Assembly: GCA_022826305.1 (NCBI GenBank)
Contig: JAJDVC010000153.1
Coordinates: 1-36,331 of the forward strand
DNA: 36,331 bases
Reading direction: 5' to 3'
Source of the DNA: Gammaproteobacteria bacterium
Lineage (GTDB): Bacteria > Pseudomonadota > Gammaproteobacteria > Arenicellales > Poriferihabitantaceae
The notes under the pieces were generated by a model, which saw only the letters and a program-made list of their open reading frames with translations, did no database searches and was not told where the DNA came from. Shown one piece after another: positions 26,494 through 34,172 of the stretch. Position 1 is the stretch's first letter; the number at the start of each line of letters is the position of its first letter. Made by a program: the position numbers and the translations under genes.

Positions 26494-27696
26494 CTAGAAC
26501 ACCGTTCCCAGCTTGAAGATCGGGAGATACATGGCGATGACTATGGTCCCGACAATCAGCCCCAGAAAGACGATCAGAAATGGTTCGATGAGGCTGCTGA
26601 TGGTGGATATCGAGTTGTCGACGTCGGATTCGTAGAACTCCGCCATCTTGTTCAGCATGCGTTCCAGTTCACCGGATTCTTCGCCTGTGGTGACCATCTG
26701 CAGGACAAGACCGGGAAACAGGCTGGTACCCTGCATGGCTGCGGCCAGGCTGCGGCCAGTGGAGACCTCCGTTCTGACGTATTGCAGCCCATTGGTATAT
26801 ACCCGGTTTCCTGCGGCGATGGAGACAGTACCCAGAGCCTCCACCAGCGGGACCCCTGCGCCGAACATGGTGGCCAGGGTGCGTGAGACCCGTGCGATAG
26901 TGGCCTTGCGCAGGATCTCCCCGAATACGGGAAACCTGAGAATCATGCTGTCGCACAGGAGTTGCAGGCCTGCGGATCTCCTGTAGGCAAGAACCAGCAT
27001 TATTCCTGTTCCCGCCACGACGCCGAAGGTCAGATACCAGTATGTCTGAACGAAATGGGATAGTCCGACAATCCAGCGTGTCAGCGCGGGGAGTTCGGAA
27101 CCGTAACCGGTAAACAGCGCCTCGAATTCCGGTATGACGGCAACCAGCAGCACCACGATAATGACCGCGGAGACCACGATTACCAGCGCGGGGTAGAACA
27201 TCGCGGACTTTATCTTGCCCTTGATATACTCCATTTTCTCCAGATATGCGGCGATCTTCGACATCATGATGTCCAGTGTGCCTGACTCTTCGCCGACCGC
27301 AACCAGACTGGTGTACTGGGTGTTGAAGTGCTTGGGATGCTGCTTGAGGGCATTGCTCAGGGTAGTTCCCGTTTCGACGCTTTCCCGGATGGAACCAAGC
27401 AGACGCTTGGCCGACTCGTTTTCATATCCTATGATGATGCTTTGCAGGGACGAGGCAATGGGTACGCCCGCCTCCATCATCGTGGCAAGCTGCCGGGTGA
27501 AAAAGACGATATCCTCGATCTTGACCCGCTTTTCCATGCTGAACAGGGGTTTGCTGCGCCTGCGAACCTTCTGCACCCGAATCCCCCGGCGACGTAACTG
27601 CTGCCGCGCATCCTGGAGGCTTTCAGCTTCGAGTTCCCCGGCGGCCGGACGACCGTCCCGTCTTACGCCGTTCCACGTATAGGTCGAGGTTGCCAC
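26494..27696 (-). CDS. pilC: Type IV pilus inner-membrane platform protein PilC
   Basis: PilC belongs to the GspF/PilC family and forms the membrane platform on which the PilB ATPase acts. The 400-residue product starts with a short cytoplasmic part (YTWNGVRRDGRPAAGELEAE). It then has two copies of the T2SSF domain, at about residues 70-193 and 272-394: FFTRQLATMMEAGVPIASSL in the first and ISRTLATMFGAGVPLVEAL-like (VSRTLATMFGAGVPL) in the second. Three membrane helices are visible near 170, 220 and 375. The start lies three bases after the pilB stop. Confidence 0.94.
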   Translation of the reverse strand: MATSTYTWNGVRRDGRPAAGELEAESLQDARQQLRRRGIRVQKVRRRSKPLFSMEKRVKIEDIVFFTRQLATMMEAGVPIASSLQSIIIGYENESAKRLLGSIRESVETGTTLSNALKQHPKHFNTQYTSLVAVGEESGTLDIMMSKIAAYLEKMEYIKGKIKSAMFYPALVIVVSAVIIVVLLVAVIPEFEALFTGYGSELPALTRWIVGLSHFVQTYWYLTFGVVAGTGIMLVLAYRRSAGLQLLCDSMILRFPVFGEILRKATIARVSRTLATMFGAGVPLVEALGTVSIAAGNRVYTNGLQYVRTEVSTGRSLAAAMQGTSLFPGLVLQMVTTGEESGELERMLNKMAEFYESDVDNSISTISSLIEPFLIVFLGLIVGTIVIAMYLPIFKLGTVF

Positions 27697-27699
27697 GGT

Positions 27700-29427
27700 C
27701 TAGTCCTTGGTTACCCGTTCCACTTCTTCCAGTGAAGTGATGCCCCGGGCTACCTTGGCGAGTCCCGCGTCCCGCGTGCTCAATATGCCCTCTTCCTTGG
27801 CAGCCTGCTCGATTTCCAGCGTCGAGGCGCGCTTCATGACAAGTTCGGATATCCGGTTGCTCAGGGGCATGACCTCGAAGATCCCGGTTCTTCCCCGGTA
27901 GCCGAGTGTACAGGCGGCGCAGCCGGACGGTTCGTAGATTTCCAGGGAATCCAGGTCCTGTTCCCGGAATCCCGCCTGGAGCAGTACTTCCTCAGGATAC
28001 GAGGCGATGCGGCGGCAGGATTCGCAGAGCCGTCTCACAAGCCGCTGGGCGATGATCAGGTTGACCGATGAGACAATGTTGAAGGGTGCAACGCCCATGT
28101 TGATCAGCCGAGTCACGGTGCTGGGCGCATCGTTGGTATGAAGGGTGGAAAAAACCATATGACCGGTCTGGGCGGCCTTGATCGCGATTTCAGCGGTTTC
28201 AAGATCCCGGATCTCCCCCACCATGAGCACGTCCGGATCCTGCCGCAGAAATGCGCGCAGGGTCACGGCAAAGGTCAGCCCCGCCTTTTCATTGATGTTG
28301 ACCTGGTTGATCCCGCTGACATTGATTTCAACCGGATCCTCGACGCTGGAGATGTTCCGCTCCGGCGTATTGAGTATGCTCAGTGCCGAATACAGGGAGA
28401 TTGTCTTGCCGCTTCCCGTGGGACCGGTTACCAGTATCATGCCATGGGGTTGAAATGCGGCTTCCCGATACAGGGCGAGTTGCGAGTCGGTCATGCCGAT
28501 CATGTCTATCCCGAGGTTTGTGACAGAGGTGTCCAGTACCCTGATGACCATCTTTTCCCCGAACAGTGTCGGCATGGTATTGACGCGGAAGTCTATGGAG
28601 CGGTTGCGGGAGAATGTCAGTTTCATCCTGCCGTCCTGGGGCAGACGCCGTTCGGCGATATCCAGTTTCGACAGGATCTTCAGGCGCGCGATGATCTTGT
28701 GGATCAGGCCAAGCGGGGGATTGATTGCATCGTGCAGCACGCCATCGATCCTGAATCGTATCCGGGTCATGCGTTCATAGGGCTCGATGTGGATGTCGGA
28801 AGCCAGTTTGTGAATGGCGTCCTGAAGGATCTTGTTGACGAAACGCACGATGGGTGCATCGATCAGCAGATCCGCCGAGTCGATTCCCTGCTGTTCCTCC
28901 GTCTCCTCGGTCAGGTCGATGTCTCCGAGATTTCCCTCCTCGACGATGTCGCTCAGGGTAACGTCGGTGTCCGGCTCGATCATCGAGTCGATCATCGAGT
29001 CCAGTTTCTTCGGATCGACCAGAACAGGCTTGATGCGCAGCCCGGTGCTGAACTTGATTTCGTCGATTGCCGCCCTGTTGGACGGATCCGACACGCCCAC
29101 GAACAGTTTTTGTCCCCGCATGAACAGTGGCAGGACGCGATTCTTCTCGATGACCTTGTCGGACACCAGCTGTGTCGGAGCCAGCTGCATGTTGATGGAA
29201 TCCAGGTCGAGCAGCGGGAAACCGAATTCCGCCGCCGCAATCTGGCTGGCCTGGCTGACAGGAATGATGTTCTGGGTTATGGACTGGAGATAAAACGACC
29301 GGTTTTCGCTTCGAGCGTTCTTCAGCACGAGCATCGCATCCGATTCGGACAGGAACCCCCTTTCCACCATCTTGCGGGCGATTCCCGGCAGGGTCTCCTT
29401 TCCTTGCGCCTGTTCCGCTTCACTCAT
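27700..29427 (-). CDS. pilB: Type IV pilus assembly ATPase PilB
   Basis: PilB is the hexameric ATPase that powers pilus extension. The 575-residue product has a GspE N-terminal domain (to about residue 160), then an N2 domain with ASDIHIEPYERMTRIRFRID near 212. The ATPase core has Walker A GPTGSGKT near 335, the Asp box ISSVEDPVE near 360, Walker B DPDVLMVGEIRD near 398, and the His box FSTLHTNDAPST near 427. The C-terminal zinc site uses CESC near 470 and CAAC near 505. It is the first gene of the minus-strand pil block. No pilin gene adjoins it. Confidence 0.95.
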   Translation of the reverse strand: MSEAEQAQGKETLPGIARKMVERGFLSESDAMLVLKNARSENRSFYLQSITQNIIPVSQASQIAAAEFGFPLLDLDSINMQLAPTQLVSDKVIEKNRVLPLFMRGQKLFVGVSDPSNRAAIDEIKFSTGLRIKPVLVDPKKLDSMIDSMIEPDTDVTLSDIVEEGNLGDIDLTEETEEQQGIDSADLLIDAPIVRFVNKILQDAIHKLASDIHIEPYERMTRIRFRIDGVLHDAINPPLGLIHKIIARLKILSKLDIAERRLPQDGRMKLTFSRNRSIDFRVNTMPTLFGEKMVIRVLDTSVTNLGIDMIGMTDSQLALYREAAFQPHGMILVTGPTGSGKTISLYSALSILNTPERNISSVEDPVEINVSGINQVNINEKAGLTFAVTLRAFLRQDPDVLMVGEIRDLETAEIAIKAAQTGHMVFSTLHTNDAPSTVTRLINMGVAPFNIVSSVNLIIAQRLVRRLCESCRRIASYPEEVLLQAGFREQDLDSLEIYEPSGCAACTLGYRGRTGIFEVMPLSNRISELVMKRASTLEIEQAAKEEGILSTRDAGLAKVARGITSLEEVERVTKD

Positions 29428-29684
29428 GAGGGTTCCGCTCTCCCGTCATGGCGTATTGCACAATTGCCAATAACCGAGTAATATAGTTGGTTATTGACAA
29501 CGCCATAGTCATGTCCAGTCCGCGCCGATTGCAATGCACATACATTATTTACCATGCCAGCCTGTCAAATCAAGCCTGACGGCGTCGGCCGATCGGGACT
29601 GTGCAGCGTTCAGGTCCTTGCCTGGTCATCTGAAACCCCGCTCCGGAAGCCGTGGATCAGTGCGGACCATCGGGTGTCCGTGAC
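29428..29684. other. Divergent intergenic region between pilB and iscR
   Basis: This 257-base gap has an AT-rich core (about 29455-29560) and GC-rich flanks. It must hold the promoters of pilB on the minus strand and iscR on the plus strand, together with the IscR box listed separately. TTGCAC (29456-29461) and TAATAT (29479-29484) are 17 bases apart and could be a weak iscR promoter, but the match is too poor to call. No coding frame was recognised. Confidence 0.45.
29470..29494. promoter_or_regulatory. Candidate IscR type 1 binding site
   Basis: A 25-base dyad with outer half-sites ATAACC and GGTTAT and an inner GAGT...TAGT around an AT-rich centre. It agrees at 21 of 25 positions with the type 1 site consensus bound by [2Fe-2S]-IscR in E. 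coli, as I remember it (ATA-N-YYGACT-centre-AGTCRR-N-TAT). The site is 190 bases upstream of iscR and 43 bases upstream of pilB, so it could autoregulate the suf operon and also act on pilB. Site seen; binding inferred. Confidence 0.6.
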
Positions 29685-30149
29685 ATGAGATTGACAACAA
29701 AGGGCAGGTATGCAGTGACCGCGATGATCGATCTCTCGCTGAATCAGGGGCACGGCCCGGTGACGCTCAGGAGCATTTCGCAGAATCAGGGTATATCCCT
29801 GTCGTACCTTGAACAGCTGTTTGCGAAAATGCGCAAGTCCGGCCTGATCTCGGGTACCCGCGGACCCGGGGGCGGCTACATCCTGAACCGCGACGTGGAC
29901 CGGATCAGCATAGCGGATATCGTCGTGGCGGTTGACGAGCCGCTGGATATTACGGAATGTGCGGGAAGAGAGGATTGCCAGGATGGCAGGCGATGCCTGT
30001 CGCACGGCCTCTGGAGCGAACTGAGCGATCAGCTGTACGGGTTCCTGGCGGGAATCAGTCTTGGAGAACTGATGCGGCAAAGCGGCCTGACCCGCATCAG
30101 GGAGGAAAGCCGGCAGGTGGAAGTGCCTTCGCTGGCGGATACCGCATGA
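29685..30149 (+). CDS. iscR: Fe-S cluster-sensing regulator IscR (Rrf2 family)
   Basis: IscR senses Fe-S status by carrying a [2Fe-2S] cluster and regulates Fe-S assembly genes. The 154-residue product begins MRLTTKGRYAVTAMIDL, has the winged helix with ISLSYLEQLFAKMRKSGLI, and carries Cys92, Cys98, Cys104 and His107, the same spacing and numbers as the cluster ligands of E. coli IscR. The following LWSELSDQLYGFLAGISLGE also matches. ATG 29685 is preferred over an upstream in-frame codon at 29652, which would add 11 unrelated residues. It leads the suf operon, with sufB 30 bases downstream. This makes it more IscR-like than the SufR or generic Rrf2 proteins often found with suf. Confidence 0.93.
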   Translation: MRLTTKGRYAVTAMIDLSLNQGHGPVTLRSISQNQGISLSYLEQLFAKMRKSGLISGTRGPGGGYILNRDVDRISIADIVVAVDEPLDITECAGREDCQDGRRCLSHGLWSELSDQLYGFLAGISLGELMRQSGLTRIREESRQVEVPSLADTA

Positions 30150-30179: not shown

Positions 30180-31631
30180 ATGCAAGGTACCGAAAAGGAT
30201 CTGACTGCCCTGGTACAGCGGGAGTACAAGGAGGGTTTCACGACCGACATCGAGGCTGATACCCTGCCGCCCGGGCTGGACGAGGAGGTGATCCGCACGA
30301 TCTCGGGCAAGAAAGCGGAACCGGACTTCCTCCTTGAGTGGCGCCTGATGGCCTATCGGCGCTGGCTTGAAATGAAGGAACCGGACTGGGCCCAGCTGCA
30401 TTACCCGAAAATCGACCTGCAGGACATCAGCTACTACTCCGCTCCGAAGCAGAAGAAGTTGCTGGACAGCCTTGACGAGGTCGACCCCAAGCTGCTGGAG
30501 ACCTACGAGAAACTCGGCATCCCCCTTGAGGAGCAGAAAATGCTGGCCGGGGTCAGGGTGGCCGTGGATGCGGTGTTCGACAGTGTCTCTGTGGCGACGA
30601 CCTTCAAGAAGACCCTGTCCGAGGCCGGGGTGATATTCTGCCCGCTGTCGGAGGCCGTGAAGGATTGTCCGGAACTGGTGCACAAATACCTGGGCTCGGT
30701 TGTCCCTGCCGGGGACAATTACTTCGCCGCACTGAATTCCGCCGTGTTCAGCGAAGGTTCGTTCGTGTACATTCCCCCGGGAGTACGCTGCCCCATGGAA
30801 CTGTCCACGTACTTCAGGATTAACGCCATGAATACCGGGCAGTTCGAGCGGACGCTGATCATCGCCGATGAGGACAGCCATGTCAGCTATCTCGAAGGGT
30901 GCACTGCGCCCATGCGCGACGAGAACCAGCTACATGCCGCCGTGGTGGAACTGGTTGCCCTCAAGGGCGCCGAGATCAAGTATTCCACCGTGCAGAACTG
31001 GTACCCCGGGGACGAGAACGGCCGGGGCGGCATATACAATTTCGTCACCAAGCGTGGCGCCTGCAAGGGGAAGCGCGCCAAGATTTCCTGGACCCAGGTC
31101 GAGACCGGTTCCGCCATCACGTGGAAGTATCCGAGCGTTGTGCTCGAGGGGGACGACTCCATCGGGGAGTTCTATTCGGTGGCCCTGACCAACAATTATC
31201 AGCAGGCGGACACCGGCACCAAGATGGTGCACATAGGCAAGAACGCCAGGAGCACCATCATTTCCAAGGGCATCTCCGCCGGCCACGGCCAGAACTCCTA
31301 TCGCGGACTGGTAAAGGTGCTCAAGGGGGCGGAGAAGGCCAGGAACTACTCACAGTGCGACTCCCTGCTGATGGGCAGCACCTGCGGCGCCCACACCTTC
31401 CCGTATGTCGAGGTAAGGAACCCGACCGCCGTGGTCGAGCACGAGGCGACGACTTCCCGCATCGGCGAAGACCAGCTGTTCTACTGCCGCCAGCGCGGAC
31501 TGTCGGAAGAAGAGGCGGTATCCATGATCGTCAACGGTTTCTGCAAGGAAGTGTTCAAGGAACTGCCCATGGAGTTCGCCGTGGAAGCCCAGAAGCTGCT
31601 CGGGATCAGCCTTGAAGGTTCGGTCGGGTAG
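30180..31631 (+). CDS. sufB: Fe-S cluster assembly scaffold protein SufB
   Basis: SufB is the main scaffold of the SufBC2D complex. The 483-residue product has the family blocks [20 protein letters not shown] near residue 16, [15 protein letters not shown] near 118, [20 protein letters not shown] near 195, [10 protein letters not shown] near 235, [20 protein letters not shown] near 270 and a C-terminal [18 protein letters not shown] with Cys436. A GAGGAG ribosome binding site lies about ten bases before ATG 30180. It is followed by sufC after 15 bases. Confidence 0.97.
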
Positions 31632-31646
31632 CCTCCCTGCATCTTC

Positions 31647-32417
31647 ATGCCCGGATCACTCATGCTCTCAGTCAGAAACCTGCATGCCGCAGTTGAAGGC
31701 AAGGCCATCCTCAACGGCATAAACCTGGAAATCGGTCCCGGACAGGTCCATGCCATCATGGGACCCAACGGTTCCGGCAAGAGCACGCTCGCCAATGTTC
31801 TGGCAGGTCGGGACCACTTCGAGGTTACGGCAGGAGAAGTGGAATTCCGGGGCTGGGACCTGCTTGAAATGGAGCCGGAAATACGGGCCCGCGAAGGACT
31901 TTTCCTCGCCTTCCAGTATCCGGTGGAAATACCGGGAGTCAGCAATCTGCACATGCTCAAGGCGGCCGTCAACGCCGTACGCAGGCACCGTGGCGAGGAG
32001 GAATTGAATGCCATGGAATTTCTCAAGCTGATCAAGCAGAAGGCTGCCCTGGTGGAGATGAGGCAGGAGTTCCTCTACCGCTCGGTCAACGAGGGTTTTT
32101 CCGGCGGCGAGAAGAAGCGCAACGAGATTCTGCAGATGGCGATGTTCGAACCGCGCCTGAGCGTCCTTGACGAAACGGATTCCGGCCTTGATATCGATGC
32201 GCTGAAGATCGTGGCGCAAGGCGTCAACAGCCTGAGGAGCAGTGACCGCTCGATTCTGCTGGTGACGCATTACCAGCGACTGCTGGATTACATCGTTCCC
32301 GATTTCGTGCATGTGCTCGCACACGGGAAGATCATCCGTTCCGGGGACAAGGATCTTGCCCTGGAACTTGAGCGTAAAGGGTACAGCTGGGTCGAGGATC
32401 ATGCAGGCGCTGCCTGA
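31647..32417 (+). CDS. sufC: Fe-S cluster assembly ATPase SufC
   Basis: SufC is the ABC-type ATPase of the SufBCD complex; it is soluble and not a transporter. The 256-residue product has Walker A IMGPNGSGKST near residue 38, the signature FSGGEKKRNEI near 151, and Walker B LSVLDETDSGLD near 170, all as in SufC. ATG 31647 is used; ATG 31662 (MLSVRNLHAAVEG) fits the family start better and may be the true one. It overlaps sufD by 17 bases. Confidence 0.96.
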   Translation: MPGSLMLSVRNLHAAVEGKAILNGINLEIGPGQVHAIMGPNGSGKSTLANVLAGRDHFEVTAGEVEFRGWDLLEMEPEIRAREGLFLAFQYPVEIPGVSNLHMLKAAVNAVRRHRGEEELNAMEFLKLIKQKAALVEMRQEFLYRSVNEGFSGGEKKRNEILQMAMFEPRLSVLDETDSGLDIDALKIVAQGVNSLRSSDRSILLVTHYQRLLDYIVPDFVHVLAHGKIIRSGDKDLALELERKGYSWVEDHAGAA

Positions 32418-33738
32418 CGCGTGCGCCGATCCCAGGACCCGTCCTTATCTGGAGCAGTTCAGGGACGTGCATGAGACGTTGTCTGGCGCCGGCGTGGAGT
32501 GGCTGGCGCGCTCACGGGTATCCAGCATGGCCCATCTTTGCAGCGGGGGATTTCCCACCCAGCGGGATGAGGACTGGAAATACACACCCCTGCGTTCCGT
32601 CATGGCGCACCCGTTCAGTCTCGCCGTCGGCGGGCATGTGCCGGACGACCCCGACCGTTACGGTGTTCCCGGGCTCGACAGTCTCAGGGTAGCATGCATT
32701 GACGGGATCCTCGATTCCCGGTGTGCGCCCTGCCCCGCCGCTGGCCTGAGCGTGCAGTCCTTTTCCGACATGCTGGCGCGGAATCCCGACCAGCTGAAGT
32801 CCTGCATGGGGAAGGTTTCCGGAGCCCGTTCCCACGGTTTCGTCCTGCTCAACGAGGCCCTGCACCGTGATGGTGTGGTGATTGAAATCGCGCCCCGTGT
32901 CCGGATAGACAGACCGGTGGAACTGCTGATGCTGTCCTGCGAAGATTCGGCACTGGTGTTGCCGAGGATCCTGATCATCGCCTCGGAAGGCTGTCGGGTG
33001 GAGATAGTCGAACATCAGGTTTCCGCGCACGCCGGCAGCGGGCTGTACTGCGGCATGACGGAAATGTACCTGGAACCGGGCGCGCATGTGAAGTACAGTG
33101 TCATCCAGAACCAGTCACGCTCCGCCTATCAGGTTTCCGGCGCCTGGGCGGAGCTTGCCGAAAACAGCCGCCTTGACTGCCGCACCGTTTCGGTGGGAGG
33201 CGCCCTGACGCGCAATGACCTGGCTGTCAACCTGACTGGTCCCGGCGCCCACTGCGATATGCTTGGCGCCTACTGCCTGTCGGGCCGGCAGCACGTGGAC
33301 AACCATACCACCGTGGTGCATGGTGCGGAAAACTGTACCAGCAACGAGTTGTACAAGGGGGTTCTGGACGACCGGTCACGGGGCGTGTTCCACGGCCGGA
33401 TCAGGGTCGAGGAGGGCGCCCGGAAAACCGATGCCCAGCAGGCGAACAATACCCTGCTCCTGTCAAGAGGCGCAGAGATCGATACCAAGCCGCAGCTGGA
33501 AATCTATGCCGATGACGTCAAGTGTTCCCACGGCGCGACGGTCGGACAGCTGGATGACAAGGCCCTGTTCTACCTGCAGACCCGCGGGATAGACCCGGCG
33601 GCCGCGCGCTCCATGCTGATATCCGCATTCGTGGGGGAAGTGCTGCAGTCCGTCGAACCGCAGCCGCTTCACGATTACCTGTGCGCGTTGCTGGACGAGC
33701 AGCTTTCGGACCCGGGTACCGGGGAGCCTGGGCCATGA
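32401..33738 (+). CDS. sufD: Fe-S cluster assembly protein SufD
   Basis: SufD is the SufB paralogue that completes the SufBC2D scaffold and is linked to iron entry. The 445-residue product has GFPTQRDEDWKYTPLRSV near residue 51, a divergent middle, and the C-terminal beta-helix part with the SufB/SufD-type DNHTTVVHGAENCTSNELYK near 300, FHGRIRVEEGARKTDAQQAN near 330 and DDVKCSHGATVGQLD near 370, which holds the conserved histidine. ATG 32401 lies inside the end of sufC; codons further upstream are a shadow. Its stop overlaps the sufT start (ATGA). Confidence 0.94.
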   Translation: MQALPDACADPRTRPYLEQFRDVHETLSGAGVEWLARSRVSSMAHLCSGGFPTQRDEDWKYTPLRSVMAHPFSLAVGGHVPDDPDRYGVPGLDSLRVACIDGILDSRCAPCPAAGLSVQSFSDMLARNPDQLKSCMGKVSGARSHGFVLLNEALHRDGVVIEIAPRVRIDRPVELLMLSCEDSALVLPRILIIASEGCRVEIVEHQVSAHAGSGLYCGMTEMYLEPGAHVKYSVIQNQSRSAYQVSGAWAELAENSRLDCRTVSVGGALTRNDLAVNLTGPGAHCDMLGAYCLSGRQHVDNHTTVVHGAENCTSNELYKGVLDDRSRGVFHGRIRVEEGARKTDAQQANNTLLLSRGAEIDTKPQLEIYADDVKCSHGATVGQLDDKALFYLQTRGIDPAAARSMLISAFVGEVLQSVEPQPLHDYLCALLDEQLSDPGTGEPGP

Positions 33739-34172
33739 AAAGAGTGAACTTCGATCCCGATCTTGAACTGAAGAAGGCGCGTATCATGGAGGAATTCAAC
33801 CAGAGCGAGAACCGGGAACTGCCCGCTCGCGCGGGTGCTGCAGACCAGGAGATGGTTGCGGATGTGCCGGAATCGGATCTCAAGGAGCAGATCATCGATG
33901 CGCTCAGGACGGTGTATGACCCGGAAATTCCGGTCAACATCTATGACCTGGGCCTGATCTACGACGTGCGGATAGACAATGGATTCGTGGAAATCGACAT
34001 GACCCTGACGGCGCCCGGCTGCCCGGTTGCGCATACCTTTCCGGGAATCGTGGAACGCTCGGTATGCCTGGTGCCGGGCGTGGCCGCGGCAACCGTCGAG
34101 ATCGTCTGGGATCCGCCCTGGACCCCCGAGCTGATCAGCGAGGCGGCCCGCCTGGAACTCGGCCTGATCTGA
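33735..34172 (+). CDS. sufT: SufT, MIP18/DUF59-family Fe-S maturation protein
   Basis: SufT-type DUF59 proteins help mature Fe-S proteins and are often the last gene of suf operons. The 145-residue product has an N-terminal variable part of about 50 residues and then the DUF59 domain: DALRTVYDPEIPVNIYDLGL near residue 57, followed by IYDV, LTAPGCPVAHTFPG near 94 and VEIVWDPPWTPELIS near 119. ATG 33735 overlaps the sufD stop. The same domain occurs in PaaD and in apo-protein carrier fusions, but the context points to SufT. No sufS, sufE or sufU follows; the next gene is on the other strand 25 bases away. Confidence 0.88.
   Translation: MKRVNFDPDLELKKARIMEEFNQSENRELPARAGAADQEMVADVPESDLKEQIIDALRTVYDPEIPVNIYDLGLIYDVRIDNGFVEIDMTLTAPGCPVAHTFPGIVERSVCLVPGVAAATVEIVWDPPWTPELISEAARLELGLI

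Follow-up and report, generated by a model that had tools for sequence, protein, structure and literature searches.

A probable IscR type 1-like operator between divergent pilB and iscR-suf genes keeps company with iscR across the Poriferihabitantaceae

Introduction

Contig JAJDVC010000153.1 of a gammaproteobacterial assembly (GCA_022826305.1) carries, in the gap between the divergent genes pilB and iscR, an inverted repeat that resembles the type 1 operators of the Fe-S regulator IscR. Which of the two genes does this repeat serve? A sequence-only reading of the stretch analysed here (36,331 nucleotides, hereafter the window) expected autoregulation of iscR, and proposed that the same box might also place a type IV pilus ATPase gene under the control of Fe-S status.

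Results

Genes on the two sides of the gap

The genome comprises 3.03 Mb in 263 contigs and is 90.8 percent complete. To the left of the gap, on the reverse strand, lie pilB, encoding the type IV pilus assembly ATPase (27700-29427, TIGR02538 over its cut-off), and a gene for a PilC-like inner membrane protein (26494-27696), whose matches to PilC and GspF families all fall below cut-off. To the right, on the forward strand, iscR (29685-30149) has TIGR02010 as its top model (E 3.1e-57), with a score of 192.2 bits that lies below the equivalog cut-off of 207.55 and above the Rrf2 superfamily cut-off. Its product belongs to the Rrf2 proteins (PF02082, E 9.9e-38) and aligns to E. coli IscR structures over residues 1 to 134 or 135. 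The Fe-S cluster ligands of IscR are C92, C98, C104 and H107. All four are kept when the protein is aligned with 4hf0 and 4hf1, chains that themselves have Ala at the three Cys places, and so is E43, a residue that reads DNA (PMC8561392). The genome has one iscR match.

Downstream on the same strand follow sufB (30180-31631, TIGR01980 and NF008773 over cut-off), sufC (31647-32417, TIGR01978 over cut-off), sufD (longest reading frame 32311-33738, TIGR01981 over cut-off; from its translation, the gene probably begins further in, at an ATG near 32401), and a gene for a SUF-associated FeS_assembly_P protein, SufT-like (33681-34172, 141 bits against a cut-off of 143.4 for TIGR02945, PF01883 over cut-off). 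The stretch from 30180 to 34172 holds no sufS, and the one SufS over cut-off is encoded on a separate contig, C152. A search of the genome for IscU found no match; given this, and the single SufS elsewhere, Fe-S assembly probably relies mainly on SUF. No structured RNA or tRNA was found in the window.

A type 1-like dyad in the gap

The box occupies 29470-29494, without strand assignment, and reads ATAACCGAGTAATATAGTTGGTTAT. It is identical to the type 1 consensus ATASYYGACTRWWWYAGTCRRSTAT, as given in PMC6599224, at 21 of 25 positions (84 percent); type 1 sites footprinted in Pseudomonas aeruginosa match the consensus at 64 to 76 percent (PMC6599224). No other place in the window does better than 18 positions, and among 100 random windows drawn from a first-order Markov model the top score was 20, seen in four, with 21 never reached. 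The box is separated by 42 bases from the pilB start at 29427 and by 190 from the iscR start at 29685. The dyad and its position between the two genes thus stand as the sequence-only reading had described them. The inverted repeat extends beyond the box, as TTGCCAATAACC and GGTTATTGACAA, with 11 of 12 positions paired.

The half-sites of the box are CCGAG and CCAAC, both of the CC kind. E. coli type I sites have an asymmetric pair, TTGAC with CCGAC (PMC8561392), which the box here, unlike those sites, does not contain. The symmetric arrangement is shared within the family, as 16 of 18 family boxes have CC on the left and GG on the right. When the regions upstream of iscR in 19 family genomes were compared with the E. 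coli consensus, the present box proved the best fit, and only eight of the 19 reached at least 19 of 25. A matrix built from 17 family boxes, this genome excluded, gave the box 29.8 bits, with 5.1 for the runner-up in the window. We also searched the whole genome, allowing up to three mismatches. A clade pattern, composed after inspection of the boxes, found a single match, the box itself, with one match for the backward control; the E. coli consensus found none, because the box carries four mismatches to it.

The box accompanies iscR through the family

The family is represented by 24 genomes, of which 20 have an iscR match; in G002 the iscR start is cut off, leaving 19 readable. A box was called where, within 500 bases of iscR, a place matched at least 19 of 25 positions of a seed written from the first boxes seen. 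By this measure 18 of the 19 genomes have a box upstream of iscR, and the second-best place never exceeds 16 of 25. It is kept in all eight genomes in which pilB is the divergent neighbour (loci L001, L002, L006, L008, L009, L010, L011 and L015), and in 10 of the 11 in which pilB is not beside iscR; at L004, L012 and L016 no more than 350 bases remain before the end of the contig, and no pilB match at 1e-100 was found in those three genomes. The check for conservation in relatives that the sequence-only reading had suggested thus finds the box upstream of iscR whether or not pilB stands alongside. Scored against the matrix with each left out in turn, the 17 family boxes range from 23.3 to 38.3 bits.

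The sole exception, L005 in G001, has a seed score of 17. About 150 bases before iscR, this locus retains the half-sites ACCTACT and AGTAGGT around a GC-rich centre, with flanking runs of A and T; the repeat could be a box whose -10 has been lost, or else a terminator. The box of L011 stands 468 bases ahead of iscR and that of L015 498 bases, and use of that promoter would therefore give iscR a very long leader. At L085, from a relative named Candidatus Spongiihabitans thiooxidans, the IscR is 73 percent identical; the name suggests a sponge-associated lineage.

With up to two mismatches, the clade pattern finds one place in each of 16 of the 24 family genomes, without exception upstream of iscR; the backward control gives one match, in G005. 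The pattern was derived from iscR boxes, so the informative part of this result is the absence of places elsewhere. With every place at iscR, a regulon of many such boxes was rejected.

No comparable box at pilB away from iscR

Outside this genome, pilB is found near seven of 80 named iscR loci, apparently those of the seven family relatives (four of the 80 have less than 1500 bases of upstream sequence). We scanned up to 600 bases upstream of pilB at the best 30 of a longer list of pilB matches, eight of them beside iscR and 22 not. The eight score 29.8 to 38.5 bits, with seven of their boxes being part of the matrix. The other 22, of which only L046 (G012) belongs to the family and 21 come from other families, score -4.8 to 10.7 bits, with no comparable box; in G012 itself, iscR has a box 19 bases from its start. 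At L042, L054 and L060, where the N-terminus is absent from the pilB match, the start position is an extrapolation; at L048 and L043 the upstream sequence extends for only 214 and 456 bases.

At least 10 bits was reached by one of the 22 pilB upstream regions (L043), against 18 of 31 iscR upstream regions at the level of the order, and at least 20 of 25 to the E. coli consensus by none of the 22, against 14 of the 31. The L043 score of 10.7 bits was equalled in none of 100 shuffles, and its consensus match of 16 of 25 in 43 of 60. As 13 of the 31 order-level iscR regions themselves score below 10 bits with the clade matrix, its silence at pilB of other families is weaker evidence. A box belonging to pilB was rejected, given that none comparable occurs at the 22 loci away from iscR. 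In the six other genomes of the genus (G001-G006, 75 to 94 percent complete) no pilB match was found at 1e-100, in contrast to its retention in this genome; the genus may have lost its pilus machinery.

Where the two genes are adjacent, the distance from box to pilB, with pilB starts set by rule, drifts through 42, 72, 134, 140, 152, 159, 298 and 300 bases, the shortest being that of this genome. The box is thus kept neither with pilB nor at a fixed distance from it.

Promoter signals around the box

Towards iscR, a putative -35 element (TTGCAC, 29456-29461, forward strand, 3 of 6) and a putative -10 element (TAATAT, 29479-29484, forward strand, 4 of 6) are spaced by 17 bases, the latter falling at box positions 10-15. 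The pair is weak, at 7 of 12, and is missing from the list returned by the promoter scan; an alternative -35, TGCACA, one base further on with a spacer of 16, matches at 4 of 6. In the 18 family boxes, positions 10-15 read TAAAAT in 14, TATAAT in two, TAGACT in one and TAATAT in this genome. A TTG stands exactly 17 bases upstream of the hexamer in eight of 18 boxes in the direction of iscR and in none in the divergent direction. Averaged over the boxes, however, the -35 match at 17 bases differs little between the two directions, with 2.1 of 6 towards iscR and 1.4 of 6 the opposite way. Seven of the eight boxes with the TTG come from genomes with pilB beside iscR, a concentration that may reflect kinship. 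In L002, L014 and L016, moreover, a TTG hexamer matching at 4 of 6 heads the divergent -35 candidates listed for spacings of 16 or 18 bases, and L015 has a stronger candidate on the iscR side, 10 of 12, outside the box.

Towards pilB, no candidate of at least 8 of 12 lies between box and gene in this genome. L006 and L008 have 10 of 12 candidates in that interval, nearer to pilB than the box, and L011 has one of 10 of 12 inside the iscR leader. Candidates of 8 of 12 that overlap the box occur in L002, L008 and L011, three of the seven other shared gaps. The candidates of the eight gaps, for which no chance level was set, differ in place, and no pilB promoter common to all was found.

Interpretation of the box

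Taken together, the conservation and promoter evidence makes it likely that the box is the ordinary autoregulatory operator of iscR, sufBCD and the SufT-like gene, with any effect on pilB incidental. Throughout the family the box stays with iscR, and it lies within a predicted promoter of that gene, so that comparison lends good support to the autoregulation that had been expected. Most likely it is a variant operator with CC in both half-sites, set over a presumed iscR-suf operon, and straddles the iscR -10 in the manner of the P. aeruginosa iscR promoter, which has two type 1 sites, A and B, the latter placed between -35 and -10 and acting in repression (PMC6599224). With the -10 hexamer of TTGCAC-17-TAATAT, the likely promoter, inside the box, [2Fe-2S]-IscR occupying this site would obstruct RNA polymerase and keep suf expression low as long as Fe-S clusters are abundant; once IscR lost its cluster, the repression of suf would be lifted. 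For pilB, the divergent neighbour, any consequence would be incidental.

The proposed control of pilB from the same box finds no support in the comparison. The box persists at iscR without pilB, pilB loci elsewhere are without it, the distance drifts, and two relatives have good candidates for a separate pilB promoter. Since relatives keep the box without an adjacent pilB, shared control is at most a possibility in this one genome, where the short distance and a nearly symmetric -10 core would allow it.

Such control could take the form of a bidirectional promoter. The core of the box, TAATATA, has the form TANNNTA, in which -11A and -7T pair reciprocally and starts fall 18 bases apart; this is the commonest bidirectional layout, and the core here, with its predicted starts at that spacing, is in this respect like the bidirectional promoters of E. 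coli and Salmonella (PMC10268837, PMC12825309). It differs from those promoters in being also part of an IscR operator, and in being known from sequence alone. A single pseudo-symmetric -10 would serve iscR-suf rightward, from a start near 29491, and pilB leftward, from one near 29473, and one IscR dimer would shut both. The candidate divergent -10 (TATATT, 29480-29485, reverse strand) matches TATAAT at 5 of 6, against at most 4 of 6 for the reverse hexamer in 16 of the 17 other family boxes; the lack of another candidate in the shortest of the eight gaps, and the box-overlapping candidates of L002, L008 and L011, point the same way. However, the best -35 at 16 to 18 bases in the reverse direction matches at just 1 of 6, and TANNNTA occurs in 17 of the 18 family boxes, nine of which lack pilB beside iscR. 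Occurring with or without pilB, the form is therefore a feature of the operator. The distances of up to 300 bases in relatives and the nearer candidates of L006 and L008 also tell against a bidirectional promoter, and we regard it as unlikely. We are more doubtful still of the wider proposition that in this lineage the IscR operator doubles as a bidirectional promoter, a single dimer governing Fe-S assembly together with the extension of type IV pili, with the coupling absent where the box is far from pilB.

Alternatively, pilB might be read from within the iscR leader, where a weak promoter-like site (TTGATT-18-AATAAT, 29544-29573, reverse strand, 9 of 12) faces pilB through the box, and IscR bound to the box would act as a roadblock to the transcript. 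This would account for a gap with no candidate between box and pilB. The site is the one found in 29300-29800, where 0.3 are expected by shuffling, and a roadblock formed by a single bound dimer is often partial, and we consider such an arrangement very unlikely. Still more improbable is that the dyad binds another regulator or is a chance palindrome, as might be argued from a match of just 21 of 25 to the E. coli consensus, the CC in both half-sites and an IscR below its equivalog cut-off: the box is kept upstream of iscR in the family and nowhere else at the same stringency, and the genome has a single iscR match.

Discussion

The arrangement favoured here, an autoregulatory operator of iscR-suf, resembles the P. 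aeruginosa iscR promoter in its type 1 site at iscR's own -35/-10 region and its predicted negative feedback, and differs in that one site was found rather than two, in having suf rather than isc genes after iscR, and in its divergent pilB (PMC6599224). Repression by holo-IscR, as would occur at this box, is also seen at the type I sites of the E. coli iscR operon, whereas at E. coli suf IscR acts as an activator, through a type II site (PMC8561392); here a type 1-like box precedes iscR and suf together.

The sequence-only reading had called a link between Fe-S status and a pilus gene unusual. For surface fibres at large it has precedent, in that IscR controls type 3 fimbriae through mrkHI in Klebsiella (PMC5650617) and type 1 fimbriae through fimE in E. 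coli (cited in PMC8777976). Control of pilB would likewise tie Fe-S status to a surface fibre; unlike those cases, which concern other fimbria types acting through regulator genes, it would fall on the ATPase gene of a type IV pilus. Among the portions of the literature available to us that name both IscR and pilB, none was found to link them; pilus genes are described as down in an smpB mutant (PMC6517841).

This locus illustrates that comparison across relatives can assign the owner of an operator lying between two divergent genes. It also adds to the range of IscR feedback a lineage that probably depends chiefly on SUF to build its Fe-S clusters. Should the bidirectional promoter prove true, the type 1 core, TRWWWYA, would amount to a ready-made divergent promoter, and a gene that lands beside iscR could come under Fe-S control.
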